In this document: positions 39,221-56,273 of the stretch, one piece after another
How positions within the stretch are numbered: the stretch's first letter is position 1
Layout of the letters: each line of letters opens with the position of its first letter
Assembly: GCA_947587085.1 (NCBI GenBank)
Contig: CANPXX010000003.1
Coordinates: 1 to 56,273, forward strand
Length of the DNA: 56,273 nt
Direction: 5' to 3'
DNA from: an uncultured Clostridia bacterium
GTDB lineage: Bacteria; Bacillota; Clostridia; Christensenellales; Borkfalkiaceae
Notes under the pieces: generated by a model
Told to the model about the DNA's origin: nothing
Databases searched by the model: none
The model's input: only the letters and a program-made list of their open reading frames with translations
Translations under genes and position numbers: made by a program

Positions 39221-39266
39221 AAAAAAACAGAGAACCGACGGCGTTTGCCATCGGCTCTTTGTTTCG
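39221..39266 (-). terminator. Intrinsic terminator of the giant repeat gene
   Basis: Minus strand GAGCCGATGGCaaacGCCGTCGGTTCTCTGTTTTTTT. Confidence 0.75.
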
Positions 39267-39294: not shown

Positions 39295-42200
39295 TTAGAA
39301 CGCCTTACAAGCATAGACTGTTTCACTCGTATGTGTGATATTATCTCCGCAAGTAAACACAACATATACTGCAACATGTCCGTGCGTTTTATTCCCAGCT
39401 TTCTTGATTGTGCAAGAATCGGCGTAGGCATCCGTTCCCACCCTATCGTACTCGACGTCCGACGTGTTCGGTTCATCATTGGTGTTGTTGTTGACATAGT
39501 ATCTGTAATGTACGCGAACACTTCCTTCTGCCGCCGGTCCACCAATAAATGTACCACCCGTTACTTCTGCATCGATTTTATGAGTATATGTGCGATCCCA
39601 ATCATAGTTGTAGTGCTTATCGACAGACTTGATCTCAACGGAAAGGTCTAACATCCACAACGCCTCGACATGGGTCTCCGTGTAGGTCGCGGCGAGCGTC
39701 AGCTTCTCCACGCGCTCCCAAGATACGTTCGAGCCGTCGCCGACCTTTTTGTACCAACCGAGGAAGGTGTATCCCTCCATGGAGGGCGTCGGGAGGGTGA
39801 GCTCGCTCTCGAACTCCACCGCATACTCCACATTCGCTTCGTAGGACTCACCATCCAATGTGTACCTTTGGGCACTCAGATAGAAGATGCGGTCGGCGTC
39901 GTAGACGGCGCGGAACACCGTACCGTACTCGCCGATATCCACCGACGATTTGTCCCAATGCCCTTCGCGCACGCCGCCCACCTTGGGAATCTCCGCCGCG
40001 GCGGGAATGTTGATGATGACGCCGCCGACAGGGACCTCCTCCGCAGGCGCGAACGATACGCCGTTCGCGAGGAACTGTACATAGGAGCCCGCGCGCATCG
40101 TCGTATGATAGAGCCAGAAGCCGGTCGGTTGCCCGTCCTCGCCCCTCTCCTCTTCCCACGAGGCGCTGAACCGATAGGCACTGCGGAACACGACCTCCTG
40201 CAAGTCGCCGCCGTAGGAAGGATAGACGTTCATATCGCCCATGACGGCTGTATGCGCCCAGAATGCCGTGTAGCCCTCTCTGAGCTGAGGCGCTTCGATG
40301 CCGTTCGCCTTCGCGAGGTCGTCTGTATAGGTCGCGCTGGAACTGTCGAGCACGAGCACATGGTTCGGCACCGTAGAGAAGTCGATGTTTTTGAGGTCGG
40401 ATTGCGTGAACGTCCCTGTATAGGGAACGCGAACGTTCGCGACTTCGCCGACCTGTTCGCCGTTCGGCTTCGTGAAGTAGCGCACCGTGTAGGTGTTGCC
40501 CGAAACGACGGAGCCGTCCACCATATAGAGTTTCTTCTCCGCTCCGCCCTGCGAATAGGTGAAGGTCGCCTGTACGACCATGCCGCCGTAATCGAGCGCG
40601 CCCTTCACGACGAATTTCGCGCTCGTCATGCCGCCGCTTTCAAACTTGCCGCTGTCGTTGATCTCCTGCAACTTGCCGCTCTTGAAGGTATCCTTCGTGC
40701 CGTCCGTCACGCCGACATAGACGCCCTGCAACACTCTCTGAACGCCGAGACTCGTATAGATATCCTTGCTCTTGCCGCCCGCGGGCTCGCCGCCCGTGAC
40801 GCTGCCGTTGATGTGGTGGAGGGACCCGCCGTCTTTATACACTTCGGTGACCTTCACATCGATCTCGCTGATCCAGAGCGCATAGAGCTCCGCGTCGTAC
40901 GTCTTGCCCGCATCTTTGTCGCGGAACTGTTCCACGTCCTCCACCAAGCGCCAATCCGCGTCGGCGCCGCCTTGCGATGCGTTGTAGAACCAGCCGAGGA
41001 AGCGGTACCCCGCCGTCGCGTTTTTGAGCGTGGGAACGAAATCGAGCACATATTTATCATAGAACGTCCTGTCGCAATAGTTCCCCTTCCCCGAAACGCT
41101 GCCCTGCTCGCTCGCGAACGAGAGCTCGCTGAACAGGCGCACCGTCACCGTCTTATCGATCCAATGCGCATAGAGAACATTCTTTCCTTCGAGACCCTCT
41201 CCTTCGCCGTCGCCCACATTGAAGCGGAATACGTCTGCGACGAGAGAGTTGAAGAGCTCCTTCACGGGACGCTGAATATCCACGGGCTCGCCATCGCCCA
41301 AACGCGCGGTATAGAAGCCGTCAAATTCATATCCCGGCGTCTCGACGCCTTCGCCCGGGACGACGTTGCTCCCGTCCTCGAGGATGAGCTTGCCGCTGTC
41401 GTACACATACAAAAGTTTGCGCATGTAGTACGCCTTGCCTGTGACGCCGTCGTAATCGAACTCCTGCAAGATCTGCTTGAAGCCCGTCACCTCGAAGCGC
41501 GAATATTCATAGATGACGTATGTGATGGGCGTATAGACGGCTTCGATGGTCATGGGTCCCGTGACGAGATATTTCCCCTCTTCGTTGGGCTCCAAATTCC
41601 ACCTGCCCGTGTAGCCGTTGCGGGACGGCACGGCGGGGAAGCTCTCGATCGATTCGCCCACATGCAAGTTGCTGGTCCCGACGACGCTCTCGCCGCCGTT
41701 CTCCTCTTTCACGACAAACCGAACGTCTACGCCGACTTCCTCCCATTCCGCCGTGAAAACGGTCTCCGTGAGCACGTTGGGAAGCGCGAAGGCATACAGA
41801 TTTTTATCGTTCACGCGGCGGAATCCGCGAAGCACCTTTCCGATCTGTTCGTTCTTGTAGTTGTCGGGGAGCGGGAAGGCGACGTCGTATGTGAGGGTCG
41901 TCCTTAACACATATTTTCCGTCGTACTCCCCTCCTTCCTGCAATTCGAAGGAGCCGCCCTCCCACTCGATCGCATATTCGCTCACGAGGGTGACGGGATA
42001 TTGGTTGGCGTCGTACTGCGCCGTGAGGAAGAGATCTTCCGTCTCTGCCGAGAAGGTCGCGGGAGCGGCGTCCGTCCCCCAATCGCGGAAGGTATAGCCC
42101 TCCTTGACATTCGTCTCGGGATAGTCGATGGTCTCGCCGCAGATGCCGCTGTCCGTCGAGCGGACGCCGTTTACCTCGAAGGTGACGGTGAACACCACGT

Positions 42201-45200
42201 CCTGCCAGACCGCCGTGACTGCAATGGTCTGATCCTTGAACCGATGCCATTCATCGGTGAGAGAGCTATACACGTTGCCGTCGATGTCTCGGAAGCCGAC
42301 GAGCTCCTTCACATGCGTTTTCGTTATGTCGCGCGCGCCGATGTGCAATTCGCGGTCGCCCGAACCATAGACGTAATCGAAGGAGTACGTCCACATACCG
42401 TCTTCCTCTTCGTATCCCTCGATTTCGTATTCGCTCGTGATGACGATGTGATATTGTCTGCCGCGCTCGCGGGCATAGATGACGGTGTCCTTGGAGATGG
42501 GCTCCGTCGGCTTCTCCCACACCCATAGATACCCGTCCCCGACGGGCTTCTGCGCGAGCTCTTCGTCGGGATAGACGAGGTCGGCATAGAGTTCGCCCGT
42601 TTGGCTGTCGCGGACGATACTCTGCTTCGCAACGAATTCATTGTCCCGCTCGAGCTGATAGGTCACCGTGAGGAGCTGTCCTTCGAGGTAGCTCGTCGCC
42701 GTCCAATCCACCGTTTTCAGGCGCTTCGCCATGCCGCCCTCGAGCTCTTCGCTGATGGTCTTGTCGGTCTTGTCATTCGTGCCTGTATCCATCACGCCGT
42801 TCGGGTTGCGATAGAAGAGGTCGGCGGCGATGTCCACCACGCCCGCGATGGAGAGATCTGCGCCGATGGAGTCGAGGTAGCCGTCTTGGTCGGTCTTGAG
42901 GATGACGTTGATGGCATCGAAGGAACTGCTTCCCGTGATGCCCGCGCCGTTGAGAACGAGCTTCCACGTATTGTTGGCAAGATCGGACCCCGTGAGCTCA
43001 TAACCGCAAGAATTGACAAACTTACGGAAGAGCGCGCCGAGATCCTGCGGTCCCGCCTCGCTCCCCGTGCCCGAGCCGCTCGAACTGCCGACCTTCCCCA
43101 TGATCTCGCCCATCACGGTTTCGCTGAGGTTGAAGGCGAAACAGAGGGTGTTCATGTAGTCCTTCATGAAGTTGTCGAGCGGCAACATGCGGTACACGAC
43201 TTCGGGAGCGGGAAGGTTCTCCTCCTTGCTTCCGTTGAAGTGGGTGATCTGCGTGCGCTTCATGTAGAGGAGCATCCCCTCGTCCTTGCGCGGGCTCTCC
43301 TTGATGGTGAGATCGAGCGTGGTGTCGCCCTTGATGATGTCCGCGTCGCCGAGGAGTCCTCCGAGCGTGTTGTGCACGCCATCATATTCGAGACGCGCGT
43401 TGATGCCCACTCTGCCGTCCTCGTCGATGGTGATCGAGACTGCGAGCACTTTGATCGTGATCTTTTCGAGGTTCCAATCGCCGAGGTGGAGGTTGAGCGA
43501 CGCATTGCCGTCGATATAGAAATTGTCGTTGAGCACATACCGATGCGCCGCCTGTTCGCCCGAGATGATCTCGCCCGTGCGCGCGCCCTGTGCGTCCACG
43601 CCGTGCGTGATGCTCTTCGCGAGGGAGAGGATGAGCATCTCCACGCCCTGCACATCGAAATAGCCGTCCTCTGCGGGATAGATAGCGGGAACGCTCCAAT
43701 CGTTCTGTACGAGCGTCTCGCTGTCGATCCCGAGCGTGAGCCCGAGCGTCCCGCCGTCCAGCGATACTCCCTGCACGGAGAGCCCCGTCAGCATGCTCAC
43801 GCCGCCGATCGTCTTTTTGGAGAGGGAGACGGTGAGATCCTCCGCCCCTTCGCCGAAGAGCATGCCGCCGTCGAGCGCGAGCTTGAAGGTGCCGCCCGTG
43901 ACGGTCGTCTGTCCCGTCGCCTCGTCCGTGACGCTGTCGTGCGTGAACGCAAAGGAGCGCACGGCGCCGCGGCGGCCCGCTTCTTTCTCTTCGGAGGAGC
44001 CCGCCGCTTCGGTCTGCTCTTCGCTCTGCGCGTCGCCGCCGAGGTCGGGAACGTCCATATCGAGCAGGGCGAGCACGGCTTCGCCGACCGCTTTGAGGCG
44101 GGCGACCATCTCGTCCTTCTCCTCGCCCGTGCGCGTCGTGAGCTGAGACAGCCACGGCGTGACGAAATAATCGTTGACGACTTCCCACTCCACGCCGAAC
44201 ATATCCACGACGCCCGCGAGCACGGTGAGGAGTTCGTCTGCGGGCACATAGATGCGGAGCGGCTGATAGCCCTCATTGCCCTTGCCCACGGTGGAGACGG
44301 TCACATAGAAGTCGAGGTAGTTATCCTGCTCGCCGCTGAGGTCGGAATTGACCGCAACGAGTTCGAGATAGAGCGCACTGTCCACGCTCGGCACCGTGGG
44401 TGCGAGCGAGAACGCGAGCGCAACGTAGATGTCGGGATCGACGTAGAAATTCTTCGTCGCGGGGTCGAGGTGGAAGGGAAGCAGATCGCCCTCCGCCGCC
44501 GCGCCCGCATTGTAGCGCACGCTTCCTTCGAAGTTGTAGCGGACCCCCTCGGGATATTCCTGCTGAGCGCCCTCCGCGTCGAGATAGGTCGCCGCCTTCA
44601 CCGTACCGCCGAAGGTGAGGCTGAGGTTTTGCGCGCCGAGCAATCCGACCGCCGCGCCCGCATAGTCGAGGAGGTCTTTGAGATCCTCCTGCCCGAGGAG
44701 GGCGATGTCTGCGGGGAATGCGGGAAGTTCGCCCGCATAGGCGTCCGCGCCGATCTCGCCATAGAGGTTGATGACCGTCCCGTCGGGTTCCCCCACCGTC
44801 GTGGTGAGGTCGAGCGCGAGGGCGAGCCCGCCGTCCGACGCGATGAGGTCTGCCGTGAACACGCCGAGCTTGACCGCGAGCAGCCCGTCCTTCTTCTCGG
44901 AGGGCGCAAACGAGATTCCGCCGAGCAGGGAGGAGAGCCCGAAGGCGTCCGCGCTCTCGGTGAGCGCCTGCCCGCCTTTCATGAGCCCGAGAAGATCTTT
45001 TGCGCTCTTTATCGCGGGAAGCATTTCCGCACCGTCTGCGATCTCTCCCACGAGCGCGTAAATTCTGTTATAGAGGGCGACGAACGCCTCGTCGAGCGAG
45101 GAAAGCTCGGCGGGGACGATCTCCGCTCCCACCTCGCCGTATGCGAAGCGCACCTTCGCGCCGTCGTATGCGATGAGGATGTCGTGCACGGTGCCGCCCG

Positions 45201-48200
45201 CGCAGAGCGTCGCGTCGAGGGAGAGCGAGAAGCCCTCCTTCCACGAGAGATACCCCTTGCGGATCTCAAGCTGAACCGTCGTCTTGCCGATGTTCACCTC
45301 GATGTCGCCCTTCGTCAAGACGATCTGCTCGTCTCGCACGATGGCGGGCACCCGCGCAAGGAGCGGACGGAGGTCCGCATACTCCTCCGCGGCGATGTCG
45401 AGGTCGGGCGCACTGCCCTTGACGATGCGGAGGGAGACGCCGAACGCCTCCGCGGTGATGCCGCCCGCATTCACATCGAGGGTCACGTTCGCGTCCTTCC
45501 CCTCCTTCACGAAGTCGGGAAGGAGCGCATTGAGGAGTTTTGCCCCCATCACGGTGACGCGAAGGTTCCCCGCGCCGTCCTCGAGGGCGACGAGGTCGCC
45601 GAAGCGCAACGCGAGCACGGAGGTAAGGAGATCAGTCTCCTCTTCGCCCGGCTCCTCGTCGGTGAGCAGGGAAGAGACGAGCCCCGTCACATCCTCCACA
45701 TTCGCTTTGAGTTTGAGCGTATCCACCGTGAGGTACACCTTCTTCTCCGAATACACGAAGGAAATGGTCTTGTGTACCGTCTTATAGGTGAGGTCCACCG
45801 TGCCCGAGACGGCGATGTCGTTGAGGTCGAGAAGGAGAACTCCCTGCACGGCGAGGTCGCCCGTGTGATAGTCGAGCTCCGCGCGGAGATACCCTTCCCC
45901 GAACAGGTCGATGAGACTCTCCGCATACGGCAGGATGTCGGTATATCCATTCGTATCGCATACGAACGGTTCGCCCTTTGCGATCTCGAGCGTCACGCCA
46001 TATGCGCTCGCCGCGATAGTATCTCCTATCGTTACGTCCACTTCGCCCAACGCGAACTCCAAGCCGAACGCTTCCAACAGCTCCGTCCCCGCAACCGCGA
46101 GCGCGAGCGCGCCGTCCGCCTCTTTCAGCGTGACGAGCTTCCCGAAGTCCAGACCGAACACCTGCGCCAAGATATCCTGCGAGGCATTGTCCTCCTTCGG
46201 CACGTTCAAAAGTTCTGTGACGAGCGAGATCGCCTCCTGCGCTCCCGCCTTTACTTTTATGCCGTCGAGATCGAGATATACAATTCCCTGTTCGAACGAT
46301 ACCCCGATGCTCTTCTCCGCTTTCCCATAGACGAGCGTCACCGTTCCGCCGACCCTCGTCGAGGACAACTCTTCTAAATCGAGCTGTACGCCGAGGTCTG
46401 CGCGCACCTGCAACTTCTCGCTCTCATAGTTCGCTTTTACCGACAAATTCTCCGCTTCGAGAAGATCGATCACCTTCTCCACGGAGGGAAGAATGGCGGT
46501 ATAACCGTTCGTATCGCACACGAACGGTTCGCCCTTCGCGATCTCAAGCGTCACGCCATATGCGCTCGCCGCGATAGTATCTCCGATCGTTACGTCCACT
46601 TCGCCCAGCGCGAACTTCACGCCGAACGCTTCCAACAGCTCCGTCCCCGCCACCGCGAGCGTGAGCGCGCCGTCCGCCTCTTTCAGCGTGACGAGCTTCC
46701 CGAAGTTCAGCCCGAATACCTGCGCCAAGATATCCTGCGAGGCATCGTCCTCCTTCGGCACGCTCATGAGCTCCGTAACGAGGGAGATCGCCTCCTGGGC
46801 TCCCGCCTTTACTTTGATGCCGTCGAGATCGAGATATACAATTCCCTGTTCGAACGACACCCCGATGCTCTTCTCCGCCTTGCCATAGACGAGCGTCACC
46901 GTACCGCCGACCCTCGTCGAGGACAGCTCTTCTAAATCGAGCTGTACGCCGAGGTCTGCGTACACCTGCAACTTCTCGCTCTCATAGTTTGCCTTCACCG
47001 ACAGGTTCTCCGCTTCGAGAAGGTCGATCACCTTCTCCACGGAGGGAAGAATAGCGGTATACCCATTCGTATCGCATACGAACGGTTCGCCCTTTGTCAC
47101 GTCTATTTCTGCGCCGAGCGCCTTCGCATGAAGTCCGTCCCCGACGGTGAGTTCTACCTCCCCCGCCTCGAAGTCGAGCCCCAATGCCTTCAACAGCTCG
47201 GTGCCCTTGACGGAGACGCTCAACGTGCCGTCCGCCGCGCCCACGGAGACCACCGCTCCGAAGTCGAGGGAGAAGAGGCGCTCCAATAGAGACTGTGCAT
47301 TGGAATCGCTCTCGGGAATCTTGATGAATTGTTCGACGAGGGTGACGATCTCATCCACGCCCGCCTGTACCTTAATGCCGTCGAGGTCGAGATAGACGAC
47401 CCCTTTCTCCAAGGCAAGACGCACCTGTTTGCTTACCGTCTTATAGGTGAGGTCCACCGTGCCCGAGACGGCAATGTCGTTGAGGTCGAGAAGGAGAACT
47501 CCTTGCACGGCGAGGTCGCCCGTATGATAGTCGAGCTCCGCATGGAGATACCCTTCCCCGAACAGGTCGATGAGGCTCTCCGCATACGGCAGGATGTCGG
47601 TATAGCCGTTCGTATCGCATACGAACGGTTCGCCCTTCGCGATCTCGAGCGTCACGCCATACGCGCTCGCCGCGATAGTATCTCCGATCGTTACGTCCAC
47701 TTCGCCCAGCGCGAACTTCACGCCGAACGCTTCCAACAGCTCCGTCCCCGCCACCGCGAGCGTGAGCGCGCCGTCCGCCTCTTTCAGCGTGACGAGCTTC
47801 CCGAAGTTCAGCCCGAATACCTGCGCCAAGATATCCTGCGAGGCATCGTCCTCCTTCGGCACGCTCATGAGCTCCGTAACGAGGGAGATCGCCTCCTGGG
47901 CTCCCGCCTTTACTTTGATGCCGTCGAGATCGAGATATACAATTCCCTGTTCGAACGACACCCCGATGCTCTTCTCCGCCTTGCCATAGACGAGCGTCAC
48001 CGTACCGCCGACCCTCGTCGAGGACAGCTCTTCTAAATCGAGCTGTACGCCGAGGTCTGCGTACACCTGCAACTTCTCGCTCTCATAGTTTGCCTTCACC
48101 GACAGGTTCTCCGCTTCGAGAAGGTCGATCACCTTCTCCACGGAGGGAAGAATAGCGGTATACCCATTCGTATCGCATACGAACGGTTCGCCCTTTGTCA

Positions 48201-50343
48201 CGTCTATTTCTGCGCCGAGCGCCTTCGCATGAAGTCCGTCCCCGACGGTGAGCTCTACCTCCCCCGCCTCAAAGTCGATTCCCAATGCCTTCAACAGCTC
48301 GGTGCCGTGGAGGAGCAGGGAGAGACGGGCGCCGTCCTCCGAGAGGACGAAGTTGTCGGCAAACCCCGGCGTAAAAAGGGCGTCGAGCGCCCGATTCACG
48401 AGCGCGGAGGCATCGACGTCGGCGTCGAGTTCGGGAAGCGCTATAAACCGCTGAATGAGAGCGAGCGCGTCCGCCGTTTCCGCCATCACCTTTACGCCGT
48501 CGAGATCGAGATAGATCGCGCCGTCCGTGAAGGCGAGATCGACGCGCTTGGAGCCCACCCCTTGGACGCTCACCTCCGCAAAGCCGCGCAGGGCAAACGG
48601 GTCGAGAGCGATCTCCAGCTCGCCGCCCAGCGCGAGCGTGCCGTTTTCGTACGAGAACTGTACGGCGAGCTCGCCGGAAGTGAAGAGGTCGATGAGCTCC
48701 CCCGCATACGGGACGAGGTCGATAAAGACGGCCTTCTCCTCCTCGGTGAGCGGGGCAGGTCCCTCGTCGCCGAAGGCGAGCTCCGCGCCGAGATCGACGC
48801 CCGCAACGGAGAGCTGTGCCGAGACCTTTCCGAGGGAGACGGAGCCGTCCTCGGCGAGGACGAATTGGAATTGCAGAGGGATGCGGATGCCGAACAGCTC
48901 GAGCTCGCTCGTGAGCACGGCGTTCGTATCGGTGACTGTGAACTCGCCGCCCGCGAGCTGTCCGAGGAGCGCCTCGGTGTCGAGCGAAATGCCTTCGCCC
49001 TCCCCCGCCGTGAGACCGCCGACGAGCTCCATGAGCCCTTCCACGCCCGCCTTCGCCTTGACGCCGTCGAGGTCGAGATACACTTCGTCGCCCGCGTACC
49101 AGACGTACACGTTCCCGATGCGGGCGCGCACGTCCATCGTCGTGATGTCGAGGTACACCTCGCCCGAAACGGGCGTTCCGTTCACGGTGAGCCCGAGGTC
49201 GAACACGACGGGACCCGTGAGAACGCCGCCGAACGCCTCGGCGAGGCAATCGACGACGGTGAGCTCCTCTTCGACGGGACCCTGCATGATGGGCGCCTCC
49301 GCCGCTTCGCGGAAGAACTCATCGTATGCGGGGCTGTAAGAGCGCTCGGTGTTGTATTCGTATTCCGTATGGGATGTGGAGGTGCAGGGCGCCGCGATGG
49401 GACCGTACTTTGCGCTGTACGACTCCTCGATGTCTGTGGCAAAGACCTGCCAATTTTCGTCGAAGGTGAACGAGACGCTGATCGAATCGAATACGGGCGC
49501 TTCGGGAAGTCCGCCCGTGAAGATCATCTGGTTCGCATAGTAAGCGGTCGCACCCTTGGTGATCGTGCCGCCCTCCGTCGTCTCCTCCCATGTCTCGGGT
49601 TTGAGATCGTAGCGGATGGTGTACATCCCGTTGTCGAGCGCTACGACGTCCGAACAGGACTGCACGGTATTTTCCTCGATGACGTACACGCTCAGCTCGT
49701 ATGCGGGAAGTCCGTTCTTTGCCTTGAAGCCGTCCGCGCCGCCGATCTCCATGTCGCGGTACACTTCATCCTTCCACACCGTGTTGAGACCGTCGTAGGT
49801 GGAGCTCCCCCCCGCGGGCTTGCGCCAGATCACGCGGTCGAGGTCCTTCATGTAACAGAACTGGCTCGCCGCGCTCACGATGCTGCTTGAAGTGAGGTCG
49901 GCAGAGATGAGGACGCCCTCGTTGTACTGCTTATACGTCTCGATCTTCTGCTGGATGACGGTATCCACCACGCCGTGCATCTCGCCGTACCAATGCTCCT
50001 GCTGGGAGAACTTCCAATTGAGGCGGGCGAAGATGTCGATGCCCGTATAGTTCGCCTCGGGGGTGAACAGCTCCCCCTCTTCGACGGCGTGCACCACCGA
50101 GCCGTAGCTCAGATCGACGTTGTTGAGGCTCGCTTCCTGCATGAAGATGGAACCGACGGCAAACCCGCCGATTCCCATTACGAGCGCCGCGGAGAGAAGC
50201 GCCACCGCCTTCGTCTTGCGGCGGGACGTCCAACTCTTCAGGCGGATGCCATGTTTTTTGGATCTTACGATGCGCGGTTGCTTCTTGGTTTTGAGGGGTT
50301 TCAACCCCTCCTCCTCCGCGACGATATCGTGTTTCGACCTCAT
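39295..50343 (-). CDS. Giant membrane-anchored repeat surface protein (~3,682 aa), C-terminal InlB/Listeria-Bacteroides-type repeats
   Basis: One uninterrupted ORF; SD AGGAGA before MRSKHDIV; N-terminal TM TKAVALLSAALVMGIGGFAVGSIF; many VYLDLDGIKVKAG units; C-terminal TVTFEVNG...GYTFRDWGTDAAPATFSAETEDLFLTAQYDANQYPVTL-type repeats. Confidence 0.88.
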   Translation of the reverse strand: MRSKHDIVAEEEGLKPLKTKKQPRIVRSKKHGIRLKSWTSRRKTKAVALLSAALVMGIGGFAVGSIFMQEASLNNVDLSYGSVVHAVEEGELFTPEANYTGIDIFARLNWKFSQQEHWYGEMHGVVDTVIQQKIETYKQYNEGVLISADLTSSSIVSAASQFCYMKDLDRVIWRKPAGGSSTYDGLNTVWKDEVYRDMEIGGADGFKAKNGLPAYELSVYVIEENTVQSCSDVVALDNGMYTIRYDLKPETWEETTEGGTITKGATAYYANQMIFTGGLPEAPVFDSISVSFTFDENWQVFATDIEESYSAKYGPIAAPCTSTSHTEYEYNTERSYSPAYDEFFREAAEAPIMQGPVEEELTVVDCLAEAFGGVLTGPVVFDLGLTVNGTPVSGEVYLDITTMDVRARIGNVYVWYAGDEVYLDLDGVKAKAGVEGLMELVGGLTAGEGEGISLDTEALLGQLAGGEFTVTDTNAVLTSELELFGIRIPLQFQFVLAEDGSVSLGKVSAQLSVAGVDLGAELAFGDEGPAPLTEEEKAVFIDLVPYAGELIDLFTSGELAVQFSYENGTLALGGELEIALDPFALRGFAEVSVQGVGSKRVDLAFTDGAIYLDLDGVKVMAETADALALIQRFIALPELDADVDASALVNRALDALFTPGFADNFVLSEDGARLSLLLHGTELLKALGIDFEAGEVELTVGDGLHAKALGAEIDVTKGEPFVCDTNGYTAILPSVEKVIDLLEAENLSVKANYESEKLQVYADLGVQLDLEELSSTRVGGTVTLVYGKAEKSIGVSFEQGIVYLDLDGIKVKAGAQEAISLVTELMSVPKEDDASQDILAQVFGLNFGKLVTLKEADGALTLAVAGTELLEAFGVKFALGEVDVTIGDTIAASAYGVTLEIAKGEPFVCDTNGYTDILPYAESLIDLFGEGYLHAELDYHTGDLAVQGVLLLDLNDIAVSGTVDLTYKTVSKQVRLALEKGVVYLDLDGIKVQAGVDEIVTLVEQFIKIPESDSNAQSLLERLFSLDFGAVVSVGAADGTLSVSVKGTELLKALGLDFEAGEVELTVGDGLHAKALGAEIDVTKGEPFVCDTNGYTAILPSVEKVIDLLEAENLSVKANYESEKLQVYADLGVQLDLEELSSTRVGGTVTLVYGKAEKSIGVSFEQGIVYLDLDGIKVKAGAQEAISLVTELMSVPKEDDASQDILAQVFGLNFGKLVTLKEADGALTLAVAGTELLEAFGVKFALGEVDVTIGDTIAASAYGVTLEIAKGEPFVCDTNGYTAILPSVEKVIDLLEAENLSVKANYESEKLQVRADLGVQLDLEELSSTRVGGTVTLVYGKAEKSIGVSFEQGIVYLDLDGIKVKAGAQEAISLVTELLNVPKEDNASQDILAQVFGLDFGKLVTLKEADGALALAVAGTELLEAFGLEFALGEVDVTIGDTIAASAYGVTLEIAKGEPFVCDTNGYTDILPYAESLIDLFGEGYLRAELDYHTGDLAVQGVLLLDLNDIAVSGTVDLTYKTVHKTISFVYSEKKVYLTVDTLKLKANVEDVTGLVSSLLTDEEPGEEETDLLTSVLALRFGDLVALEDGAGNLRVTVMGAKLLNALLPDFVKEGKDANVTLDVNAGGITAEAFGVSLRIVKGSAPDLDIAAEEYADLRPLLARVPAIVRDEQIVLTKGDIEVNIGKTTVQLEIRKGYLSWKEGFSLSLDATLCAGGTVHDILIAYDGAKVRFAYGEVGAEIVPAELSSLDEAFVALYNRIYALVGEIADGAEMLPAIKSAKDLLGLMKGGQALTESADAFGLSSLLGGISFAPSEKKDGLLAVKLGVFTADLIASDGGLALALDLTTTVGEPDGTVINLYGEIGADAYAGELPAFPADIALLGQEDLKDLLDYAGAAVGLLGAQNLSLTFGGTVKAATYLDAEGAQQEYPEGVRYNFEGSVRYNAGAAAEGDLLPFHLDPATKNFYVDPDIYVALAFSLAPTVPSVDSALYLELVAVNSDLSGEQDNYLDFYVTVSTVGKGNEGYQPLRIYVPADELLTVLAGVVDMFGVEWEVVNDYFVTPWLSQLTTRTGEEKDEMVARLKAVGEAVLALLDMDVPDLGGDAQSEEQTEAAGSSEEKEAGRRGAVRSFAFTHDSVTDEATGQTTVTGGTFKLALDGGMLFGEGAEDLTVSLSKKTIGGVSMLTGLSVQGVSLDGGTLGLTLGIDSETLVQNDWSVPAIYPAEDGYFDVQGVEMLILSLAKSITHGVDAQGARTGEIISGEQAAHRYVLNDNFYIDGNASLNLHLGDWNLEKITIKVLAVSITIDEDGRVGINARLEYDGVHNTLGGLLGDADIIKGDTTLDLTIKESPRKDEGMLLYMKRTQITHFNGSKEENLPAPEVVYRMLPLDNFMKDYMNTLCFAFNLSETVMGEIMGKVGSSSGSGTGSEAGPQDLGALFRKFVNSCGYELTGSDLANNTWKLVLNGAGITGSSSFDAINVILKTDQDGYLDSIGADLSIAGVVDIAADLFYRNPNGVMDTGTNDKTDKTISEELEGGMAKRLKTVDWTATSYLEGQLLTVTYQLERDNEFVAKQSIVRDSQTGELYADLVYPDEELAQKPVGDGYLWVWEKPTEPISKDTVIYARERGRQYHIVITSEYEIEGYEEEDGMWTYSFDYVYGSGDRELHIGARDITKTHVKELVGFRDIDGNVYSSLTDEWHRFKDQTIAVTAVWQDVVFTVTFEVNGVRSTDSGICGETIDYPETNVKEGYTFRDWGTDAAPATFSAETEDLFLTAQYDANQYPVTLVSEYAIEWEGGSFELQEGGEYDGKYVLRTTLTYDVAFPLPDNYKNEQIGKVLRGFRRVNDKNLYAFALPNVLTETVFTAEWEEVGVDVRFVVKEENGGESVVGTSNLHVGESIESFPAVPSRNGYTGRWNLEPNEEGKYLVTGPMTIEAVYTPITYVIYEYSRFEVTGFKQILQEFDYDGVTGKAYYMRKLLYVYDSGKLILEDGSNVVPGEGVETPGYEFDGFYTARLGDGEPVDIQRPVKELFNSLVADVFRFNVGDGEGEGLEGKNVLYAHWIDKTVTVRLFSELSFASEQGSVSGKGNYCDRTFYDKYVLDFVPTLKNATAGYRFLGWFYNASQGGADADWRLVEDVEQFRDKDAGKTYDAELYALWISEIDVKVTEVYKDGGSLHHINGSVTGGEPAGGKSKDIYTSLGVQRVLQGVYVGVTDGTKDTFKSGKLQEINDSGKFESGGMTSAKFVVKGALDYGGMVVQATFTYSQGGAEKKLYMVDGSVVSGNTYTVRYFTKPNGEQVGEVANVRVPYTGTFTQSDLKNIDFSTVPNHVLVLDSSSATYTDDLAKANGIEAPQLREGYTAFWAHTAVMGDMNVYPSYGGDLQEVVFRSAYRFSASWEEERGEDGQPTGFWLYHTTMRAGSYVQFLANGVSFAPAEEVPVGGVIINIPAAAEIPKVGGVREGHWDKSSVDIGEYGTVFRAVYDADRIFYLSAQRYTLDGESYEANVEYAVEFESELTLPTPSMEGYTFLGWYKKVGDGSNVSWERVEKLTLAATYTETHVEALWMLDLSVEIKSVDKHYNYDWDRTYTHKIDAEVTGGTFIGGPAAEGSVRVHYRYYVNNNTNDEPNTSDVEYDRVGTDAYADSCTIKKAGNKTHGHVAVYVVFTCGDNITHTSETVYACKAF
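46004..46561 (-). repeat. Diverged third copy of the 558 bp (186 aa) repeat unit
   Basis: Aligned to 46562 onward with scattered substitutions; protein differs at few sites (LQVRADLG, ELLNVPKEDNASQ). Confidence 0.75.
46562..47151 (-). repeat. Exact 590 bp direct repeat, copy 1
   Basis: Matched base by base by eye to 47663-48252; period 1,101 bp (367 codons, in frame). Confidence 0.9.
47663..48252 (-). repeat. Exact 590 bp direct repeat, copy 2
   Basis: See 46562-47151. Confidence 0.9.
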
Positions 50344-50429
50344 ATTGTCTCCTGTTCGATACGTGTTCGGGCGTCTGTCCCCTGCCCGTATGACGGAAAG
50401 CTGCCTTTGTAATATTTTTTTATGACATG

Positions 50430-50458
50430 ATTGTACCATGTTTATGACGGTGTGTCAA
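50430..50458 (-). promoter_or_regulatory. Promoter TTGACA-17-TACAAT for the giant gene
   Basis: ATTGTA 50430-50435, TGTCAA 50453-50458 on plus. Confidence 0.85.
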
Positions 50459-50511: not shown

Positions 50512-50542
50512 CGAAAAAGAAAGATCCACCCCATAGGGGTGG
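50512..50542 (-). terminator. Intrinsic terminator after ABC transporter operon
   Basis: Minus strand CCACCCCtatGGGGTGGATCTTTCTTTTT. Confidence 0.75.
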
Positions 50543-50552
50543 AAATTCTGTC

Positions 50553-51227
50553 TCACGGCTTCGGCTGTGCGAGGATGCGGATGAGGTCGTCCTCGAGGGG
50601 AGGGCGGGCGAAGAAGTCCCGCGGCGGGTCGCCCTCCGCCGAGAGGTCGGCGGCTATCTCCCCCCGTTTCAGCACGATCACGCGGTGCGCGAGGACAGCC
50701 GCCTCGTGCACGTCGTGCGTGACGAACACGATGGTCTCCCCGCGCTCCCGCCAGAGGGAGGCGACGAGCCCGACGAGCGAATGTTTCAGGGCGAGGTCGA
50801 GCGAGGAGAACGGCTCGTCCATGAGCAGGGTCTCGTGCGGGTAGAGAAAGGCGCGGGCGATGGCGACGCGTTGGCGCTCCCCGCCCGAGAGAGAGCGCGG
50901 CAGCCGCTTCTCCTTTCCCGCCAATCCCACGCGGGCGAGCATGCCGCCGATTCCCCCCCACATCGGCTTGGGCAGGACGAACCGCAGATTCCCCTCCACG
51001 GTGAGGTTGGGCAAGAGCTTGGGGTCCTGAAAGAGATAGGAGACGCGTCCGCCGCCCTCCCTCTCCCCCTCGAAGGGAAGAGTTCCCGCGAGCACGCCGA
51101 GGAGCGTGCTCTTGCCCGCCCCGCTCTCGCCGAGCACCGCCGCGATCTTCCCCTCTTCGAGCGCGAGGTCGATCGCGTTGAGCGCGACCGTTTCGCCGTA
51201 CTTCTTTGTCACGCCGCGCAAGATCAT
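50553..51227 (-). CDS. ABC transporter ATP-binding protein (nitrate/sulfonate/NMT1-type)
   Basis: LGESGAGKSTLLGVLAG, SLSGGERQRVAIARAFLYPHETLLMDEPFSSLD. Confidence 0.93.
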   Translation of the reverse strand: MILRGVTKKYGETVALNAIDLALEEGKIAAVLGESGAGKSTLLGVLAGTLPFEGEREGGGRVSYLFQDPKLLPNLTVEGNLRFVLPKPMWGGIGGMLARVGLAGKEKRLPRSLSGGERQRVAIARAFLYPHETLLMDEPFSSLDLALKHSLVGLVASLWRERGETIVFVTHDVHEAAVLAHRVIVLKRGEIAADLSAEGDPPRDFFARPPLEDDLIRILAQPKP

Positions 51228-51967
51228 GTCCGCCACCTCACGATCGCCCGTTCGGCGAGAAGGCACGCCCCCTCCAACAGGAACCCGACGAGCACCACGA
51301 CGACGGTGAGGGCGAGAAGGGAGGGAAGGTCGAGGCGGATCTGCGCGTCCTGCATCATGCCGCCGAGGCTGCGATAGGTCTGCGCGAGCACTTCGCCCGA
51401 GACGGTGATTTTAAGCCCCATCGAGAGGATGGAGCCCGCCTGTCCGAGCACCGCGGGCGCGGCGAGCGGGAAGTACATCCAAAGCGCCCTGCGCCCCGCC
51501 CCCACCTTGAAGGCGCGCGCCATCCCGCCGTACTCCTCCCGCACGCCGTCGAGACTCGCGAGCATCGCCGCATACAGCGCGGGAAAGAGCACGAGGAGGG
51601 AGACGATGACGGGCGCGACGCCGTGCGACGTCCATAGGAGCAAGATGAGGATGACCGCCATCGTCGGCACCGTGCGGAGGGTGGAGACGACGGGCGCGAG
51701 AAAGGCGCGCACGCCGCCGAATAGACAGGCGAGCGCCGACAGGACGGCGGCGAGCGCCAATGCGGCGAAAAACGCCGCAAACGTCCTGAGAAAGGTGAAG
51801 CCGAACGCGCTCCAAAAGGAGGGCTCGCCCAAGAGCCGCCCCATGGCGCGGAAGGTCTCCCAAAAGGAGGGGAGGATATAGTCGTTCCGCACGATGAAAT
51901 AGGCGACGACCCACACGAGCCAGAGCGCGAGCACGGCAAGGATGGAAAAGATCAGATTTTTTTTCAC
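51224..51967 (-). CDS. ABC transporter permease (SsuC/TauC-like), GTG start
   Basis: VKKNLIFSILAVLALWLVW..., EEYGGMARAFKVGAGRRALWMYFPLAAPAVLGQAGSILSMGLKITVSGEVLA. Confidence 0.9.
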   Translation of the reverse strand: MKKNLIFSILAVLALWLVWVVAYFIVRNDYILPSFWETFRAMGRLLGEPSFWSAFGFTFLRTFAAFFAALALAAVLSALACLFGGVRAFLAPVVSTLRTVPTMAVILILLLWTSHGVAPVIVSLLVLFPALYAAMLASLDGVREEYGGMARAFKVGAGRRALWMYFPLAAPAVLGQAGSILSMGLKITVSGEVLAQTYRSLGGMMQDAQIRLDLPSLLALTVVVVLVGFLLEGACLLAERAIVRWRT

Positions 51968-53025
51968 GCGTTCCCTTTCGCTTGTTGCGCCTTGAACTGC
52001 GCCGACTTGGCAGTCGCGGCGGGTTCGGGGCAGAGATAGTATGCGCATCCCGCGGCGGGACCCACCGTGGAGGCGTCGGCGAACGCCACGAGATTCACCT
52101 TATCTTCGGCGGGCTCTTTGCCGCTGTCGAGAATCTGATAGGGAACGCCCTCCCTTTCGAGCACCACCCGCAGGGTGAGCCCGGGCACGTTGTTGAGCTG
52201 GACGACGCCGAGCGTCTGCCCGACGAGGGAGCGGAGCGATGCGGCGGAGTTCAGCTCCTTTTGGCTCGTGTTCGTGCGGAGGAAGTACATGTTGCCGTTC
52301 GTGACGACGCCGAGCATACAGTAGGAAGTCCCCTTCCCGAGCACCTTTGCCGCCGCGTTCACGGGGAGCACGCAGAAGTCCGCGGCGGGGTTCTCGCCCG
52401 TCACGCGGGCGGCGATGGTGGACGCCGCCACGATGTGATAGGAGAACGCGCCGCCCTCCGTCTCGGAGATGGCGTTTGCGAGGGCGAGCGCGGGCGCGCC
52501 GTCCGGCGCGTACACGGAGTAAGAGCCCGCGATCTCCCCCGCCTGTGCGCCGCCCTCATAGAAGAAGGCGTCCGCGGGCGCGGAGGTGAACGTCTCGTCC
52601 ACGGCGATGAGTTCGTCGAGGAAGGTCTTGACGGCTTGCTTCGCGTCCGCCGCCGCGGTGAAGCGCACCGAGCAGTTCTTCACGACGTCCGCCGTCAAAT
52701 TCTTTGCATTGAGGGAGGGCGTGAGCCCGTCCTCGTAGGTCGGGGCGAGGGCGGACACGATGTCGGCGGGCTGCGTCCCTTCGAGATATTCGTCCGCTCC
52801 CTCCATGTACGAGATCATCTCGGCGACCGCCGCGCCGTCCCCTTCGACGACGGAGCGCTTCGCGACGAGCACCGCCTGCGGATACCCGTCCTCCCCGTAC
52901 AGCGTCTGCAAGCTCCCCGCGATCTCGAACGTCTGCTCCGCCTCGGGGCGGCTGCACGCCGCCATGCCCATCGCCATGGCGCCGCAGAGCGCCAGCGATA
53001 CGATGCCGCAAATTTGCTTTTTCAT
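51964..53025 (-). CDS. ABC transporter substrate-binding lipoprotein (NMT1/SsuA-like)
   Basis: MKKQICGIVSLALCGAMAMGMAACS lipobox; GTGA overlap with permease. Confidence 0.8.
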   Translation of the reverse strand: MKKQICGIVSLALCGAMAMGMAACSRPEAEQTFEIAGSLQTLYGEDGYPQAVLVAKRSVVEGDGAAVAEMISYMEGADEYLEGTQPADIVSALAPTYEDGLTPSLNAKNLTADVVKNCSVRFTAAADAKQAVKTFLDELIAVDETFTSAPADAFFYEGGAQAGEIAGSYSVYAPDGAPALALANAISETEGGAFSYHIVAASTIAARVTGENPAADFCVLPVNAAAKVLGKGTSYCMLGVVTNGNMYFLRTNTSQKELNSAASLRSLVGQTLGVVQLNNVPGLTLRVVLEREGVPYQILDSGKEPAEDKVNLVAFADASTVGPAAGCAYYLCPEPAATAKSAQFKAQQAKGNA

Positions 53026-53647: not shown

Positions 53648-55045
53648 TCATCTGCCGTCTCTGCGCTGTTGCGCCGCGCGGCGGCGGTTCCGCCGCCGCA
53701 CGCACAGCCATACGACGACCGTAACGGCAGCGCCCGCCGCGATCGCGCCGAGGATGCAGAACGCCACCGTGAGCCCGTCGTCCGCGCCGCCGCGGATGGA
53801 TGCGGTCGGCTCCCTCTCCGAGATGACGAACCGCAATTCGTCCTGCGGGAGTCCCTCCCGCGCGAGCAGGTAGACGTCCTCCCCCCTCTCGAAGGAGAAG
53901 GTGCTCTCCTGCAAATAATAGGGCGTGGACAGGCGGATCTCCACCTCCCCCACTTCGTCCCATGCCCACGAGGGGGTGAAGAGATATTCGTACTCATAGC
54001 GGTCCGCCATCTTGGCGGGATAGACCGCCGTCTCGATCGTATGCCGCACCCGCCCGTGCGACGGCACCTCGATGGCATAGGCGTACCACGGCATGAAGTC
54101 CTCCTCGCCGAGCGCGCTCGGCGACATGTACGACATGAACCCGTTGACGGCGTTGGAGGCGAGCATCTCCGCACAGCCGCAGAACCAATCCTCCTCCGCG
54201 ATCGCGCTGTCCGCGGGGCGCAATCCATCCACATAGGAGCGGAAATCCTTCGTCTCGGAGGTGACGGCGACCGCCTCGACCCAGCTGTCGTTCATGAAGT
54301 CGTCATAAGTGTACACCTCGGCGGAGCACAGTTTGAGAGGCTCCCCCACCGACATGAGCCGCAGGACGTTCTCCCCCTGCCCGAGGAAGAATTTCGCCTT
54401 GCCGCGCCCGTTGCTCACGCTCAGATAGCCCGTCTCGGACATCACGCGGGATTTGCGCGGATTGCAATCGAAGGTGAGAACGCAGGTACAGCCGCCCGCG
54501 GAGGGCTCCTCGTCCAGATCGACTTGGCAGGTGTACACGGTGAGCGGCAGTCCCTCGGTGCAATAGAAGGGGTCGGAGCACCCGCCCCGAAGCTGGACGA
54601 GCCCGCTCTCGATGGGGACGCAGGGGTCGGAATAGCTCCTGTTCGGGTCGCCGTAAGTATAGCGCACGTCGGGCGTGACGGGCACGCCGTCCGCCGAGAT
54701 CGCGAACCCGGGGCGATCGTAACAGCTCTCGGCGAAATATTCGGGACGGATGCCGCAGGGAAAGAGCAGTCCCACCTCCGCGTCCTTTTCCGTGGGATTG
54801 TAGAAGGTGTACTCCGCCTCCATGCGTGCGCCGGGGTCGTCCTCTTCCCCGCGCGGGAGGGAGTCCACGCGGAAGGTGATGCACTCGCTTTCGAGCATCA
54901 CCTCCGTCTCTTCGGACGGCAACACGCCCGCCAGCGCGCTCCCCGCATAGTACGCGGGTTCGGAAGCGGCGTCTGCGGTCACCGCCGCGGGCGACACGAT
55001 CAACAATGGAAGCGCAAGCGCCATAACGCCCAAAGTCGGCTTCAT
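53648..55045 (-). CDS. Secreted/membrane protein of unknown function (signal peptide, C-terminal TM), coupled to histidine kinase
   Basis: MKPTLGVMALALPLLIVSPAAVTADA; C-terminal TM VAFCILGAIAAGAAVTVVVWLCVRRRNRRR; 4 nt overlap with kinase. Confidence 0.75.
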   Translation of the reverse strand: MKPTLGVMALALPLLIVSPAAVTADAASEPAYYAGSALAGVLPSEETEVMLESECITFRVDSLPRGEEDDPGARMEAEYTFYNPTEKDAEVGLLFPCGIRPEYFAESCYDRPGFAISADGVPVTPDVRYTYGDPNRSYSDPCVPIESGLVQLRGGCSDPFYCTEGLPLTVYTCQVDLDEEPSAGGCTCVLTFDCNPRKSRVMSETGYLSVSNGRGKAKFFLGQGENVLRLMSVGEPLKLCSAEVYTYDDFMNDSWVEAVAVTSETKDFRSYVDGLRPADSAIAEEDWFCGCAEMLASNAVNGFMSYMSPSALGEEDFMPWYAYAIEVPSHGRVRHTIETAVYPAKMADRYEYEYLFTPSWAWDEVGEVEIRLSTPYYLQESTFSFERGEDVYLLAREGLPQDELRFVISEREPTASIRGGADDGLTVAFCILGAIAAGAAVTVVVWLCVRRRNRRRAAQQRRDGR

Positions 55046-56273
55046 TCCTCATCCTCCCTGCGCCGCGCCGCGGCGGCCTCTTCCCCGAATCGATCCTCGG
55101 GCGGGGGCGGAAATTCCGCCCAGAAACAACTTCCCTTCCCCACCTCGGAGCGCACGCCGAAGGGACAGCGGTGCGCTTGCAGAATACTTTTGACGATGGA
55201 GAGCCCCAGCCCCGTCCCCTGCACGGGGCGCTTGTGCGTCTCCTTGGAGCGGTAGTAGCGGTCCCAGATGGTATCGAGCTCGTCCTGCGGGATTCCCTCG
55301 CCCGTGTCCTCCACCTCGAAGAGCGCCCCGCCCTCCGTGCGGTGCAGGCGGACGCGCACGAGGCGGTCCTCCCCCGTATAGTTCACCGCGTTGCCGAGGA
55401 GGTTGTAGATCACCTGCTCGATGCGGCTCCGCTCCCCATAGGCATACAGTTCGTCCTCCACGTCGAATTCGAAGCGGTAGCCCGCCGTCTCGGCGAGGTA
55501 GTCGAACCGCCCCGCAATGCGGTAGACCGTCTCCGAAAGGTTGAAGGTGACGGGCGCCTGCCGCCCCACATCCGAGCGAAGTTTGGAGAGGTCGAGCACG
55601 TCGCTCACCAGCTCGGAGAGGCGGTCCGCCTCGTCGATGATGATCTTGGCATGGGCGTCGCGCTTCTCCTTGTCCTCGCCCGAGATCTCGCGGATCATGG
55701 AGGCGTACGCCTTGATCATGGTGAGCGGCGTCTTGAAATCGTGCGAAACGTTGGCGATGAGCTCCCTCTGCATGGCGTCCGCCTTGGAGATCTCCTCCCG
55801 CGCATAGTCGAGCGCGTCCGAGAGCTCGGAGATCTCCGAGCAGAAGTATCGCTTTTTGAGGTCGAGCGCATAGTCCCCCCGCGCGAGCCGCTTGGCGCGC
55901 TCGGTGACTTCGGTGACGGGCTTGGTGATGAGCATCGCCACGAAGCCGCTCGCCAAGAAGGCGAGGAGCGCCGCAAAGAGCGCCGTGACGAGGGACATCC
56001 ACAGCAGACTGCCGTTGACGATGTCCCACGGTTCCAGCGAACAGGTGAGATAGAGGAAGCAGGGCTGCCCGTTGAGCTCCGTCCGCACGATGTGTACCAT
56101 CATGCCGTCGCTCTCATAGCTCGTCTGTTCCCGCTCGTTGAGACGGTTCTCGATCTCCTCGGCGAGATCGCCGTACACCTGCCCGTCCGAGAGCGCGCTC
56201 CGTCCGTCCGCGAAGAGGAAGAGCACCGATACGTTGTAGTCCTCGGCGATCGCCGCGAGCTACAACGTATCGG
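55042..56273 (-). CDS. Sensor histidine kinase, 5' end incomplete or disrupted at window edge
   Basis: HAMP-like TKPVTEVTERAKRLARGDY, H-box ELIANVSHDFKTPLTMIKAYASMI, N-box NLLGNAVNYTGE, GTGLGLSIVKSIL. Confidence 0.9.

Follow-up and report, generated by a model that had tools for sequence, protein, structure and literature searches.

The window (the whole stretch of DNA that was analyzed, 56,273 nucleotides) carries the gene of a giant protein of 3,682 amino acids, encoded by one unbroken open reading frame. The gene, its control elements and its syntenic neighbors are as follows:

39231-39258, minus strand: terminator 3' of the giant gene
39295-50343, minus strand: giant protein gene, from the ATG at 50343 to the stop at 39295
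50421-50449, minus strand: pair of (C/T)GTCATA direct repeats, spaced at 22 bp and straddling the -10 box, a candidate operator within the promoter region (50389-50458)
50430-50458, minus strand: promoter TTGACA-N17-TACAAT with TG before the -10 box, scoring 11/12
50525-50543, minus strand: terminator separating the ABC operon from the giant gene
50556-51266, minus strand: ABC transporter ATPase, syntenic neighbor
51227-52048, minus strand: ABC transporter permease (taurine/SaoP-like), syntenic neighbor
51964-53025, minus strand: substrate-binding lipoprotein, circularly permuted, syntenic neighbor

An earlier note on this DNA had described an uninterrupted 11-kb open reading frame with a promoter and a Shine-Dalgarno sequence, leaving the strand unstated. 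We confirmed this description for the minus strand; the plus strand is interrupted by stop codons across 39295-50343. The longest open reading frame begins at 50439, but since that ATG adjoins the -10 box and the ATG at 50343 is preceded by AGGAG, the latter is the likely start. The encoded protein is acidic overall, with a net charge of -303. As judged from the DNA, the gene is probably a transcription unit of its own that is transcribed alone, since it has a terminator upstream (50543-50525), its own promoter (50458-50430) and a terminator downstream (39258-39231). Membership of the gene in the upstream ABC operon is weakened by that intervening terminator and the separate promoter.

The promoter region is conserved. 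TTGACA followed by TGTCATA at the expected distance was present in 34 of 39 relatives, compared with 0.001 in shuffled sequences, and 23 of the 39 carry two TGTCATA half-sites 22 bp apart that straddle the -10 box. A search for a TGTCATA-repeat regulon returned no other convincing site in this genome, and the arrangement is unique to the giant gene. The (C/T)GTCATA half-site resembles the Pho-box sequence CTGTCAT.

A substrate-binding protein is encoded just upstream of the giant gene here and in 16 relatives, with the permease and the ATPase alongside in a subset of them. In the lipoprotein of this locus, a natural circular permutation places the C-terminal half before the N-terminal half, right behind the lipobox; this order is common to loci L045 and L090, and fourteen relatives have the usual one. 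A cluster of antisense reading frames on the plus strand was rejected as the shadow of the substrate-binding-protein gene. The window also encodes a 465-amino-acid predicted secreted protein (53648-55045, minus strand), which is C-terminally membrane anchored and belongs to no Pfam family, and a PnpS/PhoR-like histidine kinase (55045-56226).

Layout of the giant protein

From the N terminus to the C terminus, the protein could be divided into the following parts, each given with the evidence by which it was delimited:

50149-50208, minus strand: the only transmembrane segment, aa ~46-65, preceded by a basic tail on the cytoplasmic side (hydropathy)
49204-50067, minus strand: membrane-proximal N-domain, aa 93-380, the best-conserved part (alignment, regional identity, model)
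48799-49197, minus strand: degenerate cap unit, aa 383-515 (profile)
48169-48726, minus strand: unit 1, aa 540-725 (profile, model)
47611-48165, minus strand: unit 2, aa 727-911 (profile, model)
47068-47607, minus strand: unit 3, aa 913-1092 (profile, model)
46510-47064, minus strand: unit 4, aa 1094-1278 (profile; 99.5% DNA identity with unit 2)
45952-46506, minus strand: unit 5, aa 1280-1464 (profile, DNA identity)
45394-45948, minus strand: unit 6, aa 1466-1650 (profile, model)
44704-45393, minus strand: D8, a diverged unit, aa 1651-1880 (profile-profile match to the units of 96.6%; model)
43714-44703, minus strand: D9, aa 1881-2210, similar predicted topology (model; weak profile match to the units, 40%)
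42769-43671, minus strand: D10, aa 2225-2525, similar predicted topology (model; D9-D10 profile match of 80%)
39298-42426, minus strand: C-terminal region of ~1,040 aa with InlB/Flg_new-type repeats (best match at 42019-42192)

The basic N-terminal tail and the single transmembrane segment noticed earlier were recovered as one hydrophobic segment (aa ~46-65) behind a basic tail. Homologues whose N terminus is complete carry an N-terminal hydrophobic anchor, either a transmembrane segment or, in some, a lipobox. In many members of the genus the tail (aa 1-45) contains, ahead of the transmembrane segment, a conserved motif resembling LHEIKNKKRPRxVKxKKxGxRLK. The earlier note had also reported that LPXTG is missing; this was upheld, and neither a C-terminal transmembrane segment nor a hydrophobic sorting segment was found in the giant protein. 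The N-domain contains two invariant cysteines (aa 163 and 320) and has 23 invariant columns in the alignment. It also stands alone in small membrane-anchored proteins, one of 278 aa with a lipobox (locus L108) and one of 292 aa with a transmembrane segment (locus L107), the latter on a contig with little sequence beyond.

The array consists of six full units of ~185 aa and one degenerate unit (aa 383-515), i.e., of seven units instead of the "about eight" counted previously, and is followed by the diverged domains. At the DNA level, identity reaches 99.5% between units 2 and 4 and 93% between either of these and unit 5; the others share 52 to 66%. A profile of the unit recovered 153 full-length units across the genus, far beyond chance. 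At the distal end, the proposed InlB/Flg_new-like section was borne out by a Flg_new match at aa 2718-2775 (E = 4.5e-14); the same family was found in 8 of 10 relatives at E < 0.01, being above the cutoff in 5 of those 10. No Pfam or NCBIfam family was detected over the first 2,600 aa.

Predicted fold of the units

An AlphaFold2 model of aa 93-1092, based on an alignment of 49 sequences, reached a pLDDT of 81.7 and a pTM of 0.47, and a second model, of aa 1466-2641, reached 76.8 and 0.57, respectively. DSSP analysis of the first model revealed the same order of elements in full units 1 to 3: a helix, strands 1 to 6, two helices, strands 7 and 8, a helix, and strands 9 to 11. The predicted structure is thus an 11-stranded antiparallel half-barrel with an N-terminal helix and a helical lid after strand 6. 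In the LolA superfamily the sheet has 11 antiparallel strands, and the lid inserted between strands 6 and 7 is helical in LprG and LolB (PMC6363788); GerS has an N-terminal helix within its LolA fold (PMC8496864).

Foldseek matched the first model with a probability of 1.00 to LprG, LprF, a Bacteroides LolA-family protein (4mxt), RseB and sponge BCP1, and the second model with the same probability to LprG. The TM-scores were moderate (0.38 to 0.52 by target, all single domains) and Foldseek does not state which part of the query was aligned, so that we base the assignment on the probability, the agreement of the two models and the topology. The units appear from these models to belong to the LolA/LprG/RseB fold superfamily. 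The matches with the top E-values (neurexin, DnaN and 90S pre-ribosome proteins) were rejected, having lower probabilities, TM-scores near 0.1 and alignments that spanned multiple domains.

At the level of sequence profiles there was no such relationship. A PDB sequence search with the unit and N-domain profiles returned nothing significant, and scanning 93 units and 30 N-domains against Pfam yielded only scattered, weak matches. Neither PF03548 nor PF17131 matched the units, and hhalign of the units to PF17131 members stayed under 1%. PF07161 matched 1 of the 93 units at chance level (E = 0.064); a separate PF07161 search was silent everywhere, controls included, and hence uninformative. Membership in LolA_like was rejected, since profile-profile comparison with 28 Bacillota LolA_like proteins gave noise equal to that of reversed controls. 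The predicted link of the units to LolA-type proteins is structural alone. Profile relation of D9 and D10 to the units is only weak, and their LolA-like label derives from predicted topology. In the case of the N-domain, hhalign against the units was negative, and kinship would be a matter of predicted topology alone.

In the earlier note, the DLDGIKVKAG unit matched no domain that could be named, and the protein was put forward as an undescribed family. This is correct for sequence families, as no Pfam or NCBIfam model covers the units or the N-domain, but the fold itself can apparently be named: the AlphaFold and Foldseek check proposed there, with a pLDDT of 82 and 77 for the two models, places it among known folds (LolA/LprG/RseB). 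The accompanying guess of a lipid- or ligand-conducting rod was apt as far as the fold is concerned, the predicted fold being that of the lipid-binding LolA/LprG proteins.

The comparison extends to cellular location: members of this superfamily (CATH 2.50.20), including GerS of Clostridioides difficile, are membrane attached and extracytoplasmic, as is predicted for the giant protein. In contrast, known members have one such domain (RseB carries a second, separate one), whereas the giant protein would have seven to eleven in tandem, and its sequence could not be related to PF03548 or PF17131.

Distribution and local expansion of the array

A sequence search located the gene in 32 of the 37 genomes from the genus; it is usually a single copy, sometimes split over contig ends. 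Searches with the unit and N-domain profiles also picked up distant versions, encoded by long open reading frames, in several further families of this order; among 341 sampled genomes of the class, all N-domain matches lay within the order. One locus from another family of the order (L101; G073:C2:140000-159900) has an open frame of 9,077 aa with a weak unit match. The relatives whose source is named come from rabbit-derived (Lapin) gut MAGs labeled uncultured Clostridia.

The number of full units per array ranged from 1 to at least 17 across the genus, a variation observed between species, not among strains. Of 27 first units, 21 had another first unit as their best match, and of 89 middle units, 58 were best matched by a unit of the same protein, the latter being the signature of local expansion. 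Median protein identity within arrays reached 77 to 91% at three loci (L037, L040 and L049), with other arrays more divergent. Between species, the median identity was 48% for the N-domain, 27 to 32% for the units and 34% for D10. The better conservation of the N-domain speaks for a maintained function at the membrane, together with an array tuned in length. The sequence comparisons could thus establish the anchor, the array, its copy-number variation and local expansion, and the conserved promoter. Full-text searches, chiefly of open-access papers, turned up no account of LolA-like domains in tandem arrays and none of giant repeat proteins from Christensenellales.

Possible roles in the cell envelope

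We consider it about an even chance (probability of roughly 0.5) that the protein is an N-terminally anchored, variable-length, periscope-like envelope stalk made of LolA-fold domains. The N terminus would fix the protein in the membrane, and the extracytoplasmic part would be a string that starts with the N-domain and the degenerate unit, continues with the six full units and as many as three diverged ones, and closes with the InlB-type beta-grasp repeats. The N-domain would perform a separate, conserved task where the protein meets the membrane. The unit array may serve as a spacer, tuned by recombination, by which the distal domains are brought across the cell wall or past it. Export, surface exposure and the spacer role are what we infer for this protein.

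The likeness to periscope proteins such as SasG, Rib and Sgo_0707 (PMC8201768) lies in the tandem folded domains, the near-identical recent copies (units 2 and 4, and to a lesser extent unit 5), the variable copy number and the surface-type distal domains. Unlike those proteins, the giant protein is anchored N-terminally by a transmembrane segment or lipobox instead of a C-terminal LPXTG, so that its polarity would be opposite; its LolA-type units have neighboring termini, and its variation is seen between species. Since strands 1 and 11 of the LolA fold are antiparallel neighbors, the ends of each chain would be near each other, which argues against a straight rod and favors beads on a string. 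Such close chain ends are unlike most periscope domains and speak against the stalk, as do the pTM of 0.47, which leaves the arrangement of the units undefined, the modest TM-scores, the fact that few of the six units are near-identical here, a length variation observed between species and not among strains, and a distal part with Flg_new repeats in which no ligand-binding domain was identified. Of the "beta fibre" in the earlier note, the N-terminally membrane-anchored, beta-rich repeats are supported, but a simple fibre is not: the units are modeled as discrete alpha/beta globular domains, and this pTM establishes no rigid rod.

The main rival to the stalk, which we regard as rather unlikely, is a chain of lipid carriers in which each LolA-fold unit would bind an amphiphile (lipid, lipoteichoic acid, a lipoprotein acyl chain or dietary lipid) and pass it on across the cell wall. 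The EPDR1/LolA/LprG fold superfamily is unified by the binding of hydrophobic ligands in the curved sheet (PMC6363788), the Foldseek matches with a probability of 1.00 include LprG structures with triacylglyceride (4zra) and PIM (3mha), and many relatives carry an ABC transporter operon immediately upstream of the gene. However, the units are less conserved than the N-domain and vary in number between 1 and at least 17, RseB and GerS have this fold without being carriers, and several loci have no ABC genes. Quite unlikely, in our estimate, is the broader proposal that these are order-specific giant envelope proteins of Clostridia whose many lipid-binding LolA-type pockets move or store amphiphiles across the cell wall under a dedicated operator. 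If true, such amphiphile-moving LolA strings would be a Gram-positive counterpart of bridge-like lipid transfer systems.

It is similarly doubtful that the protein is a sensor or regulator acting on a membrane enzyme, much like RseB/MucB or GerS, with the N-domain binding a partner and the array being accessory. The N-domain is indeed the best-conserved part, with its 23 invariant columns and stand-alone anchored versions, and RseB is among the Foldseek matches (probability, 1.00), but a gene for an anti-sigma or amidase partner does not consistently lie next to it, and this reading would leave unexplained why the array is so large and so variable. Least likely, and very improbable on its own, is a repetitive adhesin whose units or InlB-type repeats bind host mucin, fiber or other cells: the Flg_new repeats are a typical feature of Gram-positive surface proteins, internalins among them, and the rabbit gut origin of relatives would fit, but Pfam revealed no recognized adhesive domain and LPXTG is absent. 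Internalins and other Flg_new (InlB B-repeat) surface proteins share these C-terminal Listeria-Bacteroides repeats, whereas the bulk of the giant protein is unrelated to them, and Flg_new alone was matched, with no leucine-rich repeats. Adhesion of this kind may coexist with a stalk.

The LolA fold has so far been known from single-domain lipid carriers and regulators, mostly of diderm or mycobacterial envelopes. Tandem arrays of predicted LolA-fold domains in Clostridia, in nearly every species of this genus and across the order, would represent a new stalk unit or possibly a lipid-handling chain, and they give a predicted fold to what databases would call hypothetical giant proteins. As related species differ widely in how many beads they have, our analysis suggests an envelope stalk of adjustable length, of a kind not described before.
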